64,000 bases of DNA from Candidatus Kuenenia stuttgartensis (GTDB lineage: Bacteria > Planctomycetota > Phycisphaerae > Phycisphaerales > SM1A02), in NCBI GenBank assembly GCA_945902075.1, contig CAMDMA010000013.1:1-64000 (forward strand), given 5' to 3'. The translations under genes were made by a program, and so were the position numbers. Below the pieces are notes generated by a model, which saw only the letters and a program-made list of their open reading frames with translations, searched no databases and was not told where the DNA came from. Shown piece by piece: positions 12,747 to 39,448 of the stretch (position 1 is its first letter; the number at the start of each line of letters is the position of its first letter).

Positions 12747-12820
12747 GCGCGCGTAGCTCAACTGGATAGAGCATCGGTCTTCGAAACCGAAGGTTGGGGG
12801 TTCGATTCCCTTCGCGCGCG
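12747..12820 (+). tRNA. tRNA-Arg (anticodon TCG)
   Basis: A full cloverleaf can be drawn. Acceptor GCGCGCG (12747-12753) pairs with CGCGCGC (12813-12819), discriminator G at 12820. The D arm is GCTC/GAGC. The anticodon arm TCGGT/ACCGA holds loop CTTCGAA with anticodon TCG. The T arm is GGGGG/CCCTT around TTCGATT. CCA is not encoded. It decodes CGA and, by wobble, other CGN arginine codons. Confidence 0.96.
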
Positions 12821-33628: not shown

Positions 33629-35041
33629 GTGACCGAGTTAACTGCGTGGCTTCTCTCCATCGGCTCGTTTGCAGCAGTCGTGATCCTCACGGCGGTCGCA
33701 GCGAAGTCGCTCGCTGGCGATGCTCCACGCGGCCGGCGCCGCTGTCCGCGCTGCTGGCATGAACTCGGACCCACTGGGCTCCTCTGCAGCGAATGCGGAC
33801 ACCCCGCCGCGCGAGAGATCGATACGCAGCGCAATCGAAGAAGCATCGTTCGCGGTGCGCTTGCGGTGATCGGAATCCTCGCGATCGCCGTGACCGCGCG
33901 CACGCGCTTTCTTGACCGCGGCCCTTGGTCGGGCGCGCCGACAAGCCTGCTCATCTTCGCCACACCCTACTTCGCTGAGGGCGGATTTCACTCATGCCCG
34001 TGGGAACTGACGCAGCGCATTCAACTTGGCCGACTTGATGATGAGAGGCTGCTCGATGCACTTCGGCTCTTCATCACAGGCGACTCGGACGCCATGCCAT
34101 CCACTCCGGCATGGGAAGCCAAGTACGGACCGATTGGGCGCGCGGTGATCCAGAAACTCAGCCGCGATAATCCGGCGCTCCTTGAATTACTTCGCATCCC
34201 TCCGACCATTCAGGTAAGAGTTCTCTTCGGAGACGGATCAGAGCCGCTCCTCTCGCTTGACGCGCAAGCTTGGTGGCCTCCGTTCATTGAAGGTCGCGCA
34301 GAAATCCGCTTTGCCGACGGCACGATGCAACTTGCCGGCTTCGACCCGAGTGGCCGGTATCCGGCACTGCTCGTTCCCGTACCGCCGGGCCTTCTCGGAA
34401 GTCGCTGCGGCGTGGTGCTTTCCCAAAGGATCCGCGGTCTTGAAAAAGAGTGGACTCCCTTCCCCGAGGTGACGATCGCGATCACCGATCCGAACTCGAA
34501 GGAAAGGGATTCGCAACGCGCGTCAGAGGACCGCGGCCTCGAAGCCGTCGATTCGCCTGCACTCCGCGAGGGCGTCGCAGCCGTGTTCAGTGACCGAATG
34601 CTCCTCTGGAAGTCAGGGTCACCCCACGCTGGCCTCCGCTTTGATGCGCTCGCGACGAGCGGCGAGGAGTTTGACGGCGTTGCCGTCGGCTTGTTGGTGG
34701 AGCTTCTCGAGGCCGGAGTTGTGCGGCGCACGAGCCGAATCTGGTGGAAGGCTGGAACTGGCAGCGGCGCTGCCGGCGAGCCGCGATGGCTCCCCTCTCT
34801 TGAGGACGAAGCGACTCTTGGTCGCCTCTTCACCCAGGACACGGCACTTGACGCACAGTGGACGCTTCGCGTCCGCGGCGATCGAGGACTTGCGTGCTAT
34901 GCGACACAAGCAACCGAATCGCGCGGTGCGGAATCCGTACCGCCGTCGAAATGGTTCTCCGGGATGATCGAGATTCCTGCCGGTATCGAGCGTGTCAATC
35001 GACCCTCACCGACGCGCCGATGGCGGCTGCTTGAGCCGTAA
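33629..35041 (+). CDS. Zinc-ribbon membrane protein of unknown function
   Basis: A 470-residue protein with no recognised family. Two hydrophobic helices (about 5-25 and 73-92) flank a four-cysteine zinc ribbon, CPRCWHELGPTGLLCSECGH (Cys39, Cys42, Cys53, Cys56). The remaining 370 residues form a large domain on the far side of the second helix, rich in beta strands, with several Trp/Pro segments (AWWPPFIEGRAEIRF, ETRI-like strands). Membrane-plus-ribbon proteins of this kind recur in Phycisphaerae genomes. The GTG start is supported only by frame and the -10-like box. Confidence 0.75.
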   Translation: MTELTAWLLSIGSFAAVVILTAVAAKSLAGDAPRGRRRCPRCWHELGPTGLLCSECGHPAAREIDTQRNRRSIVRGALAVIGILAIAVTARTRFLDRGPWSGAPTSLLIFATPYFAEGGFHSCPWELTQRIQLGRLDDERLLDALRLFITGDSDAMPSTPAWEAKYGPIGRAVIQKLSRDNPALLELLRIPPTIQVRVLFGDGSEPLLSLDAQAWWPPFIEGRAEIRFADGTMQLAGFDPSGRYPALLVPVPPGLLGSRCGVVLSQRIRGLEKEWTPFPEVTIAITDPNSKERDSQRASEDRGLEAVDSPALREGVAAVFSDRMLLWKSGSPHAGLRFDALATSGEEFDGVAVGLLVELLEAGVVRRTSRIWWKAGTGSGAAGEPRWLPSLEDEATLGRLFTQDTALDAQWTLRVRGDRGLACYATQATESRGAESVPPSKWFSGMIEIPAGIERVNRPSPTRRWRLLEP

Positions 35042-35134
35042 ACGTCGTGGCTTTGACCATGCACGCAGCGGCGAATGCCCTGAACGCATCTGATCTGGCT
35101 CCAAGCGCCGACAGCGCGAGCCACAACTTTCAAA

Positions 35135-35393
35135 CACGCCTTGGGACCCCGTCGGGAGGGTTCCGGCCGCATGCGGCCGGTGCGGGATGCCGATCCGGCA
35201 CCACCACCAGTCAGGGACGAGCGCTCGAACCCCAATGCAAGGTGGGTTCGGCGTCCATCGATCCCGACCTTCCACTCAGAGCGCTGAACGCAAGGGAGGC
35301 TTGGTCTTCGTCGCGGAGTCGCCGATCCCTTGGGGTCAAGCAAGGTTCGAGGCGATGTGCCTGACAGTCCGCCCGAGGGGGTCTCAAGGCGTG
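35135..35393 (+). ncRNA. Candidate structured RNA with a 25-nt closing stem
   Basis: The gap 35042-35517 has no credible gene. Within it, 35135-35159 pairs with 35369-35393 over 25 positions with only two mismatches. Inside are a perfect 18-nt palindrome hairpin (35163-35180), TGCCG/CGGCA (35188-35200), GAACCC/GGGTTC (35227-35249) under an outer GACG/CGTC pair, and CAAGGGA/TCCCTTG (35291-35332) enclosing CTTCG/CGGAG. One G-U pair in the closing stem and one in the last hairpin exist only if the plus strand is transcribed. A short hairpin at 35396-35410 followed by GTTTCCTCTT could end it. I see no RNase P, SRP, tmRNA or 6S signature. Confidence 0.45.
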
Positions 35394-35466
35394 AACGCCG
35401 AGTGTAGGCGGTTTCCTCTTCCACAATCACGGACCGTGTACAGCACGAAACCCGGATTCTCTTCGA

Positions 35467-35495
35467 TTGACAACCCGGGGGTCTTCGCGCATGAT
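35467..35495 (+). promoter_or_regulatory. Near-consensus sigma70 promoter TTGACA-N17-CATGAT
   Basis: TTGACA (35467-35472), 17 bp, CATGAT (35490-35495). It is the best -35 box seen in the window and lies 22 bp before the start codon of the small lipoprotein, leaving a short leader that contains GAGGAAG. Suggests strong expression. Confidence 0.65.
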
Positions 35496-35517
35496 GCGCC
35501 GACTTTGAGGAAGACTT

Positions 35518-35823
35518 ATGCCCCGTAAGACTGGATTTTCAACGCTCTCTTCGGCCGCCTTTCTGCTTGCGCTCCCGATCGGTTTTTCGATTGTGGGCTG
35601 CGCCGCAGACCCGAACAAAACTGACCTGAAGTCGATCACAAGCAACTTGACGCCGGAACTGCAAGGTACATCTGAGCGTCCGGTTGACGTCGATGTGAAC
35701 TGGGCGATGAACGCGAATCAGGACCTCCGCAGCGCTTGGAACGACCTCGGTCGCGTCTGGCTGACGGACAAGCCGAGCGCGCTCACCCCCTACCCGATCA
35801 TGCCGACCGGCGGCCAGCCGTGA
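35518..35823 (+). CDS. Small lipoprotein with strong promoter and terminator
   Basis: A 101-residue lipoprotein: signal with lipobox IVGC, cysteine at residue 28. The mature part is short and contains NWAMNANQDLRSAWNDLGRVWLTDKPS, which looks like an amphipathic helical segment. No named family. ATG 35518 follows GAGGAAG. It is a single-gene unit: near-consensus promoter before, 13-bp-stem terminator after (35935). That layout fits an abundant envelope lipoprotein, a possible counterpart of Lpp in function, which is speculation. Confidence 0.75.
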   Translation: MPRKTGFSTLSSAAFLLALPIGFSIVGCAADPNKTDLKSITSNLTPELQGTSERPVDVDVNWAMNANQDLRSAWNDLGRVWLTDKPSALTPYPIMPTGGQP

Positions 35824-36093: not shown

Positions 36094-37458
36094 ATGCGCG
36101 AACTCGCACCACTCCTTCTCCCAGTCCGCGTCGTCGGTGGCTTCGCGCGCAGTTTTCATCCTGCCACGCTCCCACCAATGCTGCGGAAGACCTACGGGCG
36201 CGAGTTGGTGAGTTGGGCGTTTCTTCCGCTCATGCTTGGCGCGATTGAGGGCGGCACCGTCGCCATCGTTGTGAAGAAGGCGTTCGAAGGCCAACCCGGA
36301 GTCGACCCGTTTTGGCTCGACCTCGCAACCGCGTGGGTCGGCGCAGCACCCAATGTGGCGAATCTCACGAGCTTCCTCTGGGCCGCACTTGCCCGCGGAC
36401 GACCCAAGGTCGCCTTCATCTCGGCACTCCAAATTGCGACATGCGTGCTCGTCGCGTCGATCGCGCTCTTCCCGCGCAATGCGACTGGCCTCGTTGCCGT
36501 GTGCATCGCACTTGGACTCGCCCGCATCGCATGGACCGGAGTGATCACAGTCCGCGCCTCGGTGTGGCGGAACAACTACCCAACCGCGAGCCGCGCGCAG
36601 ATCGCGGGCAAACTGGCGACGGTCCAAAGTCTTTTCCTCGCCGCTGCGGGATTTATCGTCGGTCGCGCGATGGACCTTTCCCCCGACAACTACCACTATC
36701 TCTTTCCGCTACTCGCGCTCTTTGGACTCTTTGGCAATCAGATCTACCGCAAGGTGCGCCTGCGACGTGCACGTCAACTGCAACGAGCCGAAACCGATGG
36801 CCGCAAGAAGGACGCTGGTTTCAATCCACTCGCGATGGTTGCGCTCTTGCGCGATGATCCGCTTTACGCGCGATTCATGTGGTGGATGAGCGTTTTCGGA
36901 TTCGGCAACCTGATGCTTATGGCGCCGCTCACCTACGTCGTCGTCGACGAACTCAAGATGAGTTACACCGGTGGCGTGCTTGCGACGACGATCATTCCGC
37001 TGGCTGTGATGCCGCTTGCGATTCCGCTGTGGGCGCGTCTCATGGACCGCACCCACATCGTGCGATTCCGATCGATTCACGGTTGGAGTTTCGTCACGGC
37101 GTCCCTTGCCATCACAGCGTCCTCGTATTTTGGAAGCGTTGCGCTGATGTATGTTGGCACGGCGCTGCTCGGCGTTGGCTTCGCCGGTGGCACGCTCGCT
37201 TGGAATCTTGGCCATCAAGATTTCGCCCCGGCCGAACGCGACAGCGAGTACATGGCGGTCCATGTCACCCTCAATGGCATCCGTGGGGTTTTGGCCCCGA
37301 TCGCGTCGTGGGCGCTATACCAGTGGCTCGCACCGAAGGGTCTTGCGAGCCTCGTGCTCCTGATCTGCACGCTCGTGAACGCGATTGGTGTGTTGGGATT
37401 CATGTCGATGCGCAAGCTCATCGCCCCGCGCGCAGAGTCGACTCCGGCGCTTGCGTGA
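36094..37458 (+). CDS. MFS transporter 1
   Basis: A 454-residue membrane protein with 11-12 predicted helices, of the major facilitator type found repeatedly in Planctomycetota. Recognisable segments are LMLGAIEGGTVAIVVKKAF near TM1-2, a charged central loop (KVRLRRARQLQRAETDGRKKD) between halves, and LLGVGFAGGTLAWNLGHQDFAP in the second half. Start may be ATG 36094 or the internal ATG 36178 (MLRKTYGRELV), as the first 28 residues are less membrane-like. The second-half GHQDFAP motif suggests a fixed family, but the substrate is unknown. A distant relative is at 44162. Confidence 0.87.
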   Translation: MRELAPLLLPVRVVGGFARSFHPATLPPMLRKTYGRELVSWAFLPLMLGAIEGGTVAIVVKKAFEGQPGVDPFWLDLATAWVGAAPNVANLTSFLWAALARGRPKVAFISALQIATCVLVASIALFPRNATGLVAVCIALGLARIAWTGVITVRASVWRNNYPTASRAQIAGKLATVQSLFLAAAGFIVGRAMDLSPDNYHYLFPLLALFGLFGNQIYRKVRLRRARQLQRAETDGRKKDAGFNPLAMVALLRDDPLYARFMWWMSVFGFGNLMLMAPLTYVVVDELKMSYTGGVLATTIIPLAVMPLAIPLWARLMDRTHIVRFRSIHGWSFVTASLAITASSYFGSVALMYVGTALLGVGFAGGTLAWNLGHQDFAPAERDSEYMAVHVTLNGIRGVLAPIASWALYQWLAPKGLASLVLLICTLVNAIGVLGFMSMRKLIAPRAESTPALA

Positions 37459-37633
37459 GGCGGATAACCGATTCCTCATTCTCCGATGCAATTGCCAAAC
37501 TTCTCGCGAGAACGGGGGGGAGCGTGTTATCGTTTCGATCCACCCTGCAACGAGGCGGGGTCACCGGAATCAAGTCTGGACTGTTGTCTGGCCCGGTTTA
37601 TTTTCTCGGCGTGCGACGGCTCGGTGCCGACGC

Positions 37634-39448
37634 ATGGGAAACAACCAACACACTATGGTCGACTTCAACCTGATCGAGGATCTCAAGCTTCCGGATGGCG
37701 AAGTGGAGCGCATGCTCCGCGAGGCATACGGCGAAAAGGTCGCCGATGGACAGATGGACACGCTCATCTCTGCCGAGATCAGCGGACTCGCGCCGGGAAG
37801 CATCCTCAAGGGTCGCGTCGTTGGTTTCGCTGGTGACGACGTCGTCGTTGATGTCGGTCTCAAGAGCGAAGGACACATCGATCGCAACGAGTTCGAGGAC
37901 ACTGACGTCGCCGTCGGCGACGAAGTCGAAGTCCTCCTCGAGAGCCTCGAAGACGAGTCAGGTGGCGTGCGCCTTTCGAAGCGCAAGGCCGATCGTATCC
38001 GCGGTTGGGAACAGATCCTCAAGACCCGCAAGGAAGGCGACGTCATCGAAGGCAAGTGCCTTCGCAAGATCAAGGGCGGCCTCCTCGTCGACATCGGCGT
38101 TCCGGTCTTCTTGCCCGCGTCGCAAGTCGATGTGCGTCGTCCGGGTGACATCGGCGAGTTCGTCGGCAAGCCGATGCGCGCGATGATTCTCAAGATCGAC
38201 GAAGAGCGTCGCAACATCGTCATCTCCCGTCGCAAGCTCATCGAAGACGAGCGCGACGCTGCAAAGAAGCGCCTTCTCGAAGGCGTGCGCGAGGGCGACC
38301 TCGTCCGCGGCATCATCACCAACGTTGCCGACTTCGGCGCGTTCGTTGATCTCGGCGGCATCGATGGCTTGCTTCACATCACTGACATGTCGTGGGGCCG
38401 CGTGAACCACCCGTCGGAGATCGTGCACATCGGCGACGAGATCGAGGTCAAGATCCTCAACATCGACCGTGAGCGCGAGAAGATCGCCCTCGGCCTGAAG
38501 CAGAAGGAAACCTCGCCTTGGGAGCAGATCGAGAAGAAGTACCCCGTTGGCTGCCGCGCGAAGGGCGAAGTTGTCAACCTCATGTCGTACGGCGCGTTCG
38601 TGCGGCTTGAAGAAGGCATCGAAGGCCTCGTGCACATCAGCGAGATGTCGTGGACCCGCCGCGTCAACCACCCGAGCGAGCTCGTGGCGGTCGGACAGGA
38701 AGTCGACGTTGTCGTGCTCGACATCAACAAGGAGAAGCTCGAAATCTCCCTCGGTGTCAAGCAGACCGAAGTCAACCCGTGGGAACTCGTCGCCGAGAAG
38801 TACCCGACCGGCACCGTCATCGAAGGCAAGGTTCGCAACCTCGCCAATTACGGCGCCTTCATCGAGATCGAGCCGGGCATCGACGGCCTTCTCCACGTCA
38901 GCGATATCAGCTGGACAAAGAAGGTTGCTCACCCGAACGAGCTCTTCAAGAAGGGTGACGTCGTCAAGTGCGTCGTCATCGACGTCGACCAAGAGAAGCA
39001 GCGCGTCGGTCTCGGCGTGAAGCAACTCGCCGAAGATCCATGGGTCGAGGGCATCCCGTCGGCGTACCGCCCGGGCATGATCGTCAAGGGCACCATCACG
39101 AAGATCACCAACTTCGGTGTCTTCGTCGAACTCGAAGAGGGTCTCGAAGGCCTGCTGCACATCAGCGAGCTCAGCGACTCGAAGATCGAGAACCCGCAGG
39201 ATGTCGTCAAGGTTGGTCAGGAAGTCGAAGTCAAGATTCTTCGCGTCGATACCGACGATCGGAAGATCGGCCTCAGCCTCAAGCGCGCGCAGTGGACCAG
39301 CACCGGTCCGGAGCGCACCGCAGGTGGCGGCGCGGCTGGTTCGACCGAGGAGTACGACCGCCCGGCTCGTCCGAGCGGCCGTCCGTCGCCAGCGCGCGGT
39401 GGTCTCGACGACCATGGCGCGATGGGCAGCGACAAGTTCAGCTTCTGA
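37634..39448 (+). CDS. rpsA: 30S ribosomal protein S1
   Basis: RNA-binding ribosomal protein needed for loading structured mRNAs. The 604 residues contain six S1 domains at about 54-120, 135-203, 219-290, 305-376, 390-462 and 479-551. Domains 3-6 carry the usual FGAFVxL...GLLHIS core; domains 1-2 are diverged ribosome-binding repeats. The tail (552-604) is Arg/Pro/Ser-rich and likely disordered. Start is ATG 37634 (MGNNQHT) or ATG 37655; neither has a good Shine-Dalgarno, as is common for rpsA. The 175-bp gap upstream shows no clear promoter. Ends in a strong terminator. Codon use is the most biased in the window, consistent with high expression. Confidence 0.97.
   Translation: MGNNQHTMVDFNLIEDLKLPDGEVERMLREAYGEKVADGQMDTLISAEISGLAPGSILKGRVVGFAGDDVVVDVGLKSEGHIDRNEFEDTDVAVGDEVEVLLESLEDESGGVRLSKRKADRIRGWEQILKTRKEGDVIEGKCLRKIKGGLLVDIGVPVFLPASQVDVRRPGDIGEFVGKPMRAMILKIDEERRNIVISRRKLIEDERDAAKKRLLEGVREGDLVRGIITNVADFGAFVDLGGIDGLLHITDMSWGRVNHPSEIVHIGDEIEVKILNIDREREKIALGLKQKETSPWEQIEKKYPVGCRAKGEVVNLMSYGAFVRLEEGIEGLVHISEMSWTRRVNHPSELVAVGQEVDVVVLDINKEKLEISLGVKQTEVNPWELVAEKYPTGTVIEGKVRNLANYGAFIEIEPGIDGLLHVSDISWTKKVAHPNELFKKGDVVKCVVIDVDQEKQRVGLGVKQLAEDPWVEGIPSAYRPGMIVKGTITKITNFGVFVELEEGLEGLLHISELSDSKIENPQDVVKVGQEVEVKILRVDTDDRKIGLSLKRAQWTSTGPERTAGGGAAGSTEEYDRPARPSGRPSPARGGLDDHGAMGSDKFSF

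Follow-up and report, generated by a model that had tools for sequence, protein, structure and literature searches.

A very likely 6S RNA gene with an enlarged closing domain on the minus strand of a Phycisphaerae-like planctomycete locus

In the 64,000-nt stretch of planctomycete DNA analysed here (the window), the 476-nt gap at 35042-35517 holds an inverted repeat with arms at 35135-35159 and 35369-35393, which raises the question of what kind of RNA is encoded there and on which strand. A first-pass annotation made from the letters alone had read the repeat as the closing stem of a candidate structured noncoding RNA, had favoured transcription from the plus strand, had found no common RNA family signature by eye and had considered a new RNA class. 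The repeat itself was borne out at these coordinates: counted by hand, 23 of the 25 positions pair on the plus strand, one of them as G-U, and 22 of 25 on the minus strand. The minimum fold of the gap has -221.1 kcal/mol on the plus and -221.2 kcal/mol on the minus strand compared with shuffle means of -192.1 and -193.0 kcal/mol (z -4.36 and -4.20, respectively), and as none of 100 shuffles on either strand folded as well, the folding goes beyond chance. The choice of strand is not given by folding energy alone.

Relation to the 6S RNA family

The best match to the region among 4227 Rfam families is 6S/SsrS RNA (RF00013), on the minus strand at 35351-35224, with 29.0 bits and an E-value of 4.7e-4 over model positions 35-152. 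This score falls short of the curated cut-off of 46.4 bits, which is the library's inclusion threshold and no biological feature; at Rfam's own cut-offs the only match in the window is one tRNA gene (12747-12820). Under permissive filters six Rfam matches were obtained in the region at E ≤ 10, the runner-up after 6S having an E-value of 0.38, and the five weak matches other than 6S (E 0.38 to 5.2) were set aside as chance level. The whole genome of the window contains a single RF00013 match at E ≤ 10 and, at this threshold, no second, canonical 6S gene. A control at E ≤ 10 also matched 7 of 14 known genomes (one archaeal), 4 of them exceeding the cut-off, and a phylum-wide scan that scored 16 of 19 first-look candidates gave no RF00013 match at E ≤ 0.001 in the window's own genome.

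Among relatives, 24 of 41 genomes have kept the DNA of the locus; within the genus 13 of 16 have done so. RF00013 matches 17 of the 41 genomes, in 12 of these 17 on the DNA match and on the strand opposite to the window-plus query; the 12 are nine genomes of the genus (the window's own included) together with G016, G029 and G039. The cut-off is exceeded in 3 of these 41 relatives and, on a wider scale, in 35 of 120 genomes from the class and 37 of 149 from the phylum, so that 6S RNA is common in the phylum. The order-level loci exceeding the cut-off are those of G040, G033 and G029 (69.2, 57.3 and 47.3 bits). Within the window's own family, none of 25 genomes and none of 20 scanned loci rise above it, and six of the 20 loci are matched at E ≤ 0.05 with a top score of 42.1 bits.

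A covariance model built solely from the cores of 13 congeners (R1) matches the window at 35365-35210 on the minus strand. At E ≤ 0.01 it detects a single copy per genome in 75 of the 81 family genomes, a set that includes three of the genus. Applied to 41 other loci, R1 matched 18 at E ≤ 1.7e-7; it recovered all 11 loci that had initially been identified through DNA similarity (L014-L024) and all seven same-order Rfam loci (L026-L030, L033 and L037, three of them over the cut-off), the latter at the same place and on the same strand as Rfam, with G029 and G039 present in both test sets. None of the 23 class-level Rfam 6S loci was matched by R1, so that it is the order that connects the element with RF00013. 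Of 17 genomes lacking an earlier RF00013 match, 14 belong to the same order, and an R1 copy at E < 1e-6 was found in 7 of these 14; R1 found none in the remaining seven, which are all members of one family (f2), nor in three genus genomes of 78-84% completeness. No convincing 6S was obtained via either model in seven of eight genomes of the sister family f2, which belongs to the same order (G025, G030, G034, G038, G119, G141 and G147; f2 genomes 96-100% complete), a pattern that might reflect loss or further divergence. The core pattern of this 6S is also carried by 11 named records.

Taken together with the structural and strand evidence below, these matches make it very likely that a Phycisphaerae-like planctomycete encodes its 6S RNA here, in a gene read on the minus strand from about 35393 to 35135. 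The idea of a new RNA class is not sustained, since the region matches Rfam's 6S family, if below threshold, and same-order relatives reached via R1 exceed the cut-off. The Rfam search proposed at the outset, in which a strong match to a known family was to count against novelty, did return a known family and so counts against it, with a direct score that is sub-threshold and not strong.

Anatomy and covariation of the RNA

The consensus interior is one long interrupted rod with a variable insert on the 3' side, and the earlier description of at least four internal hairpins is right only in a loose sense. The parts of the element and the features next to it are collected in Table 1.

Table 1. 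Coordinates of the element, its parts and adjacent features in the window
Feature	Position	Strand	Basis or remark
6S (SsrS) RNA gene (very likely), ~259 nt	35135..35393	-	ends from closing stem; RF00013, R1, covariation
Outer closing stem, 5' arm	35369..35393	-	22 consensus pairs with 35135-35159; arm swap, 21 family loci
Outer closing stem, 3' arm	35135..35159	-	covariation and arm swap
Inner closing stem, 5' strand	35341..35365	-	pairs with 35234-35210; holds presumed pRNA template
Presumed pRNA template	35342-35361	-	near-invariant, 13 congeners; start placed by analogy
Inner closing stem, 3' strand	35210..35234	-	consensus fold
Central bubble, 5' side (approximate)	35330..35340	-	RF00013 match and consensus
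Central bubble, 3' side (approximate)	35235..35243	-	RF00013 match and consensus
Apical arm of 6S rod	35244..35329	-	covarying pairs
3'-side insert between inner and outer closing stems	35160..35209	-	variable; folds into hairpins with the window's sequence
-10 box TACACT of predicted 6S promoter	35401..35406	-	13/13 congeners
Divergent promoter TTGACA-17-CATGAT	35467..35495	+	promoter scan; presumably for 101-aa gene, outside RNA
101-aa putative lipoprotein gene	35518..35823	+	divergent neighbour; relative in 40/56 loci

In the 13 congeners, 20 of 77 consensus pairs are changed on both sides and 96.2% of cells pair; none of 500 shuffles reached any of five measures, and slid controls paired below 44%. 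The outer closing stem is kept in all 13, with 95.4% of its cells paired and 7 of its 22 consensus pairs altered on both sides, so the compensatory changes that the first-pass annotation had proposed to look for among relatives are present, and its reading of the gap as a structured noncoding RNA with a closing stem is supported, the stem being kept and covarying. The 3'-side insert has 4 consensus pairs, kept in the genus at just 80.8%.

Beyond the genus, 35 family and order sequences aligned to R1 show 37 of 51 pairs doubly changed and 92.0% of cells paired (slid controls 35-45%), in an alignment that leans to the model itself. A stricter threshold excluded the antisense rows L083 and L084 from the family alignment (37.0 and 34.8 bits on the plus versus 187.2 and 183.3 bits on the minus strand). 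RNAalifold, run unaided on the family and order set, gave 39 pairs, 26 of them doubly changed, and kept the 6S-type central bubble. The outer arms, which lie outside R1, were assessed by exchanging them between 21 of 30 loci, with same-genus, contig-truncated and near-duplicate loci excluded: own arms pair with a mean of -57.9 kcal/mol and swapped arms with -41.7 kcal/mol, none of 10000 permutations being as good. In the 21-by-21 comparison own arms rank first in 17 rows and 16 columns, and those of L110 pair weakly (-35.8). The covarying rod thus displays the closing stem, central bubble and apical arm by which a 6S RNA is recognised structurally.

Strand, surroundings and competing explanations

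The predicted -10 box lies 6-8 nt upstream of the minus-strand 5' end in every one of the 13 congeners, and beyond these 13 instances the two strands of the loci, 81,234 positions altogether, contain no TACACT. A promoter consensus scan found no sigma-70 site and no -35 consensus on the minus strand, and no terminator on either strand. By eye, -10-like hexamers are visible in several family loci. With respect to G-U pairs, which the first-pass annotation had taken to work only on the plus strand, the claim holds for one outer-stem pair in the window; on the 65 pairs that are predicted on both strands, G-U cells in the 13 sequences stand at 13 for minus versus 5 for plus. Counts on strand-specific structures follow the prediction, with 73 to 10 for minus on the minus-predicted structure and 33 to 13 for plus on the plus-predicted one; the former leans to minus because the structure used was itself minus-predicted. 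On the shared pairs, the balance mildly favours the minus strand. Transcription from the minus strand is indicated by the 6S match, by the conservation of the -10 box and, to a mild degree, by the balance of G-U pairs; the plus-strand transcription favoured at first is not supported.

The surroundings of the element are partly shared among 56 loci, which span about 1.5 kb on each side and include, for a few genomes, two loci apiece. A relative of an MFS protein adjoins the 6S in 43 of the 56, and the relatives of the lipoprotein and of the MFS protein lie on the opposite strand on the 5' side of the 6S in every case. For the gene that flanks the 3' side (33629-35041), 19 of the 56 loci contain a relative. 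The 101-aa putative lipoprotein has no Pfam match. Farther along the window, an ORF at 37385-39448 with six S1 RNA-binding stretches is probably ribosomal protein S1.

A plus-strand reading of the element, whether as a structured RNA belonging to a new class or as a leader of the 101-aa gene, would agree with the one additional pair that the outer stem gains on the plus strand at equal folding energy, with a similar consensus fold obtained on that strand (69 pairs, 18 doubly changed) and with the good promoter at 35467-35495, the sole promoter-like site of the consensus scan. This promoter, however, lies between the element and the 101-aa gene, and being downstream of the element on the plus strand it is unable to make a plus-strand RNA of the element; at the mirror place, 4-10 nt before the plus-strand 5' end, no TANNNT is present in any of the 13 congeners, the shared pairs favour minus, and the top plus-strand Rfam match has an E-value of 0.38, the 6S homology being on the minus strand. 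Both forms of plus-strand RNA, the leader included, were rejected on these grounds and are extremely improbable. Several congeners, too, show GATTGACAA and CATGAT stretches like those of the site at 35467-35495.

Two further explanations accept the minus strand and question what the rod is. That an unrelated RNA converged on a 6S-like shape might be argued from the sub-threshold Rfam score and from the failure of R1 to reach the class-level 6S loci, but a graded continuity leads from the family by way of the order to loci that exceed the cut-off, with place and strand in agreement, and the element and the order-level loci have conserved segments and divergent neighbours in common, which leaves convergence hardly credible. 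More room, if still little, is left for a 6S-like RNA with a changed job, comparable to Ms1 of Actinobacteria, which binds core polymerase without the primary sigma factor. Classical 6S RNAs are usually about 180-200 nt long, and the element is longer, sub-threshold to RF00013 and enlarged in its closing domain. Ms1 is itself 6S-shaped and core-binding (PMC9130861). We regard an Ms1-like role as improbable: the match is to 6S, none of the six matches at E ≤ 10 belongs to an Ms1-type family, the sequence of the presumed pRNA template hardly varies, and a central bubble of the 6S type is retained. The element is almost certainly a branch of 6S RNA that Rfam scores below its cut-off and whose closing domain is enlarged, and as such ordinary biology.

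Proposed function, implications and comparison with known 6S RNAs

By analogy with known 6S RNAs, we infer expression, polymerase binding, pRNA synthesis, release and physiology of the element's RNA. It would fold as a rod whose central bubble mimics an open promoter, and would capture the RNA polymerase holoenzyme that carries the housekeeping sigma factor, probably under nutrient scarcity, keeping the enzyme inactive. Once NTPs are back, the 5' bubble strand would serve the polymerase as template for a short pRNA, predicted as 5'-AAGGUUCGAGGCG..., with a predicted start near 35342 in plus sense (5'-AAGGUUCGAGG) that we take to correspond to 6S model position 44. The pRNA would then unwind the inner closing stem and its 3' strand would refold in the E. 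coli manner (GARCCC with GGGTTC), by which the enzyme might be freed. Known 6S RNAs sequester the holoenzyme through their likeness to an open promoter and come off once the polymerase has used them as template for a pRNA, the freed 3' strand of E. coli-type 6S pairing into a hairpin with the 3' bubble (PMC8876501).

The presumed template 20-mer is identical in 12 of 13 congeners, and in 34 of 35 rows from the family and order a release hairpin GARCCC-N11-14-GGGTTC is possible in which no more than one of the 6 pairs is missing. When the template was held unpaired, single-sequence folding chose this hairpin in 2 of 13 cases and other pairings in 11 of 13. The 5' half of the release hairpin also pairs in the apical arm, which is another possible cause of its conservation. 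A pRNA-induced release step in the element's RNA is plausible. It is conceivable, though we consider it unlikely, that the long outer stem and the variable 3'-side domain mark a distinct 6S subtype of the family that adds something classical 6S lacks; if so, the added domain could be, for example, a docking site for a protein, or could change the form of polymerase that is held or the way it is released.

For the locus, the outcome is that a candidate new RNA class is removed and the strand is corrected to minus. For the family, it is a nearly universal 6S RNA (see the R1 count above) under the cut-off of the standard Rfam model, which a lineage-specific model would annotate. In the portions of the literature consulted on 6S RNA in Planctomycetes and Phycisphaera, no description of this RNA was found. 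One study reports no 6S in Thermogutta (PMC5673643) and quotes the absence of 6S from Pirellula and Rhodopirellula (Wehner 2014, as quoted in PMC5673643). As Rfam scores the 6S of this family below its cut-off, reported planctomycete absences could partly reflect the sensitivity of the model, an idea drawn from the window's family.

Compared with 6S/SsrS as modelled in RF00013, the element shares the rod of inner closing stem, central bubble and long apical arm, conserved segments that align on the minus strand, the occurrence as a single copy, a promoter of its own (predicted in the element) and the presumed pRNA template at the border of closing stem and bubble. It differs by its long outer stem and 3'-side insert, spanning 251-304 nt from stem end to stem end in the 13 congeners in contrast to the 187 model positions of RF00013. 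In many Proteobacteria ygfA adjoins 6S, whereas the neighbours of the element are the putative lipoprotein and the MFS gene (PMC9130861). Ms1 resembles the element in its 6S shape and, according to the same source, binds polymerase, a binding that is predicted for the element, and differs from it in that no Ms1-type Rfam match occurs in the region. Closest are the same-order 6S RNAs over the cut-off (G040, G033 and G029), for which RF00013 and R1 agree on place and strand: they are shorter than those of the window's genus, with about 183-186 nt over model positions 1-187, and in G040 the MFS relative likewise adjoins the 6S divergently.
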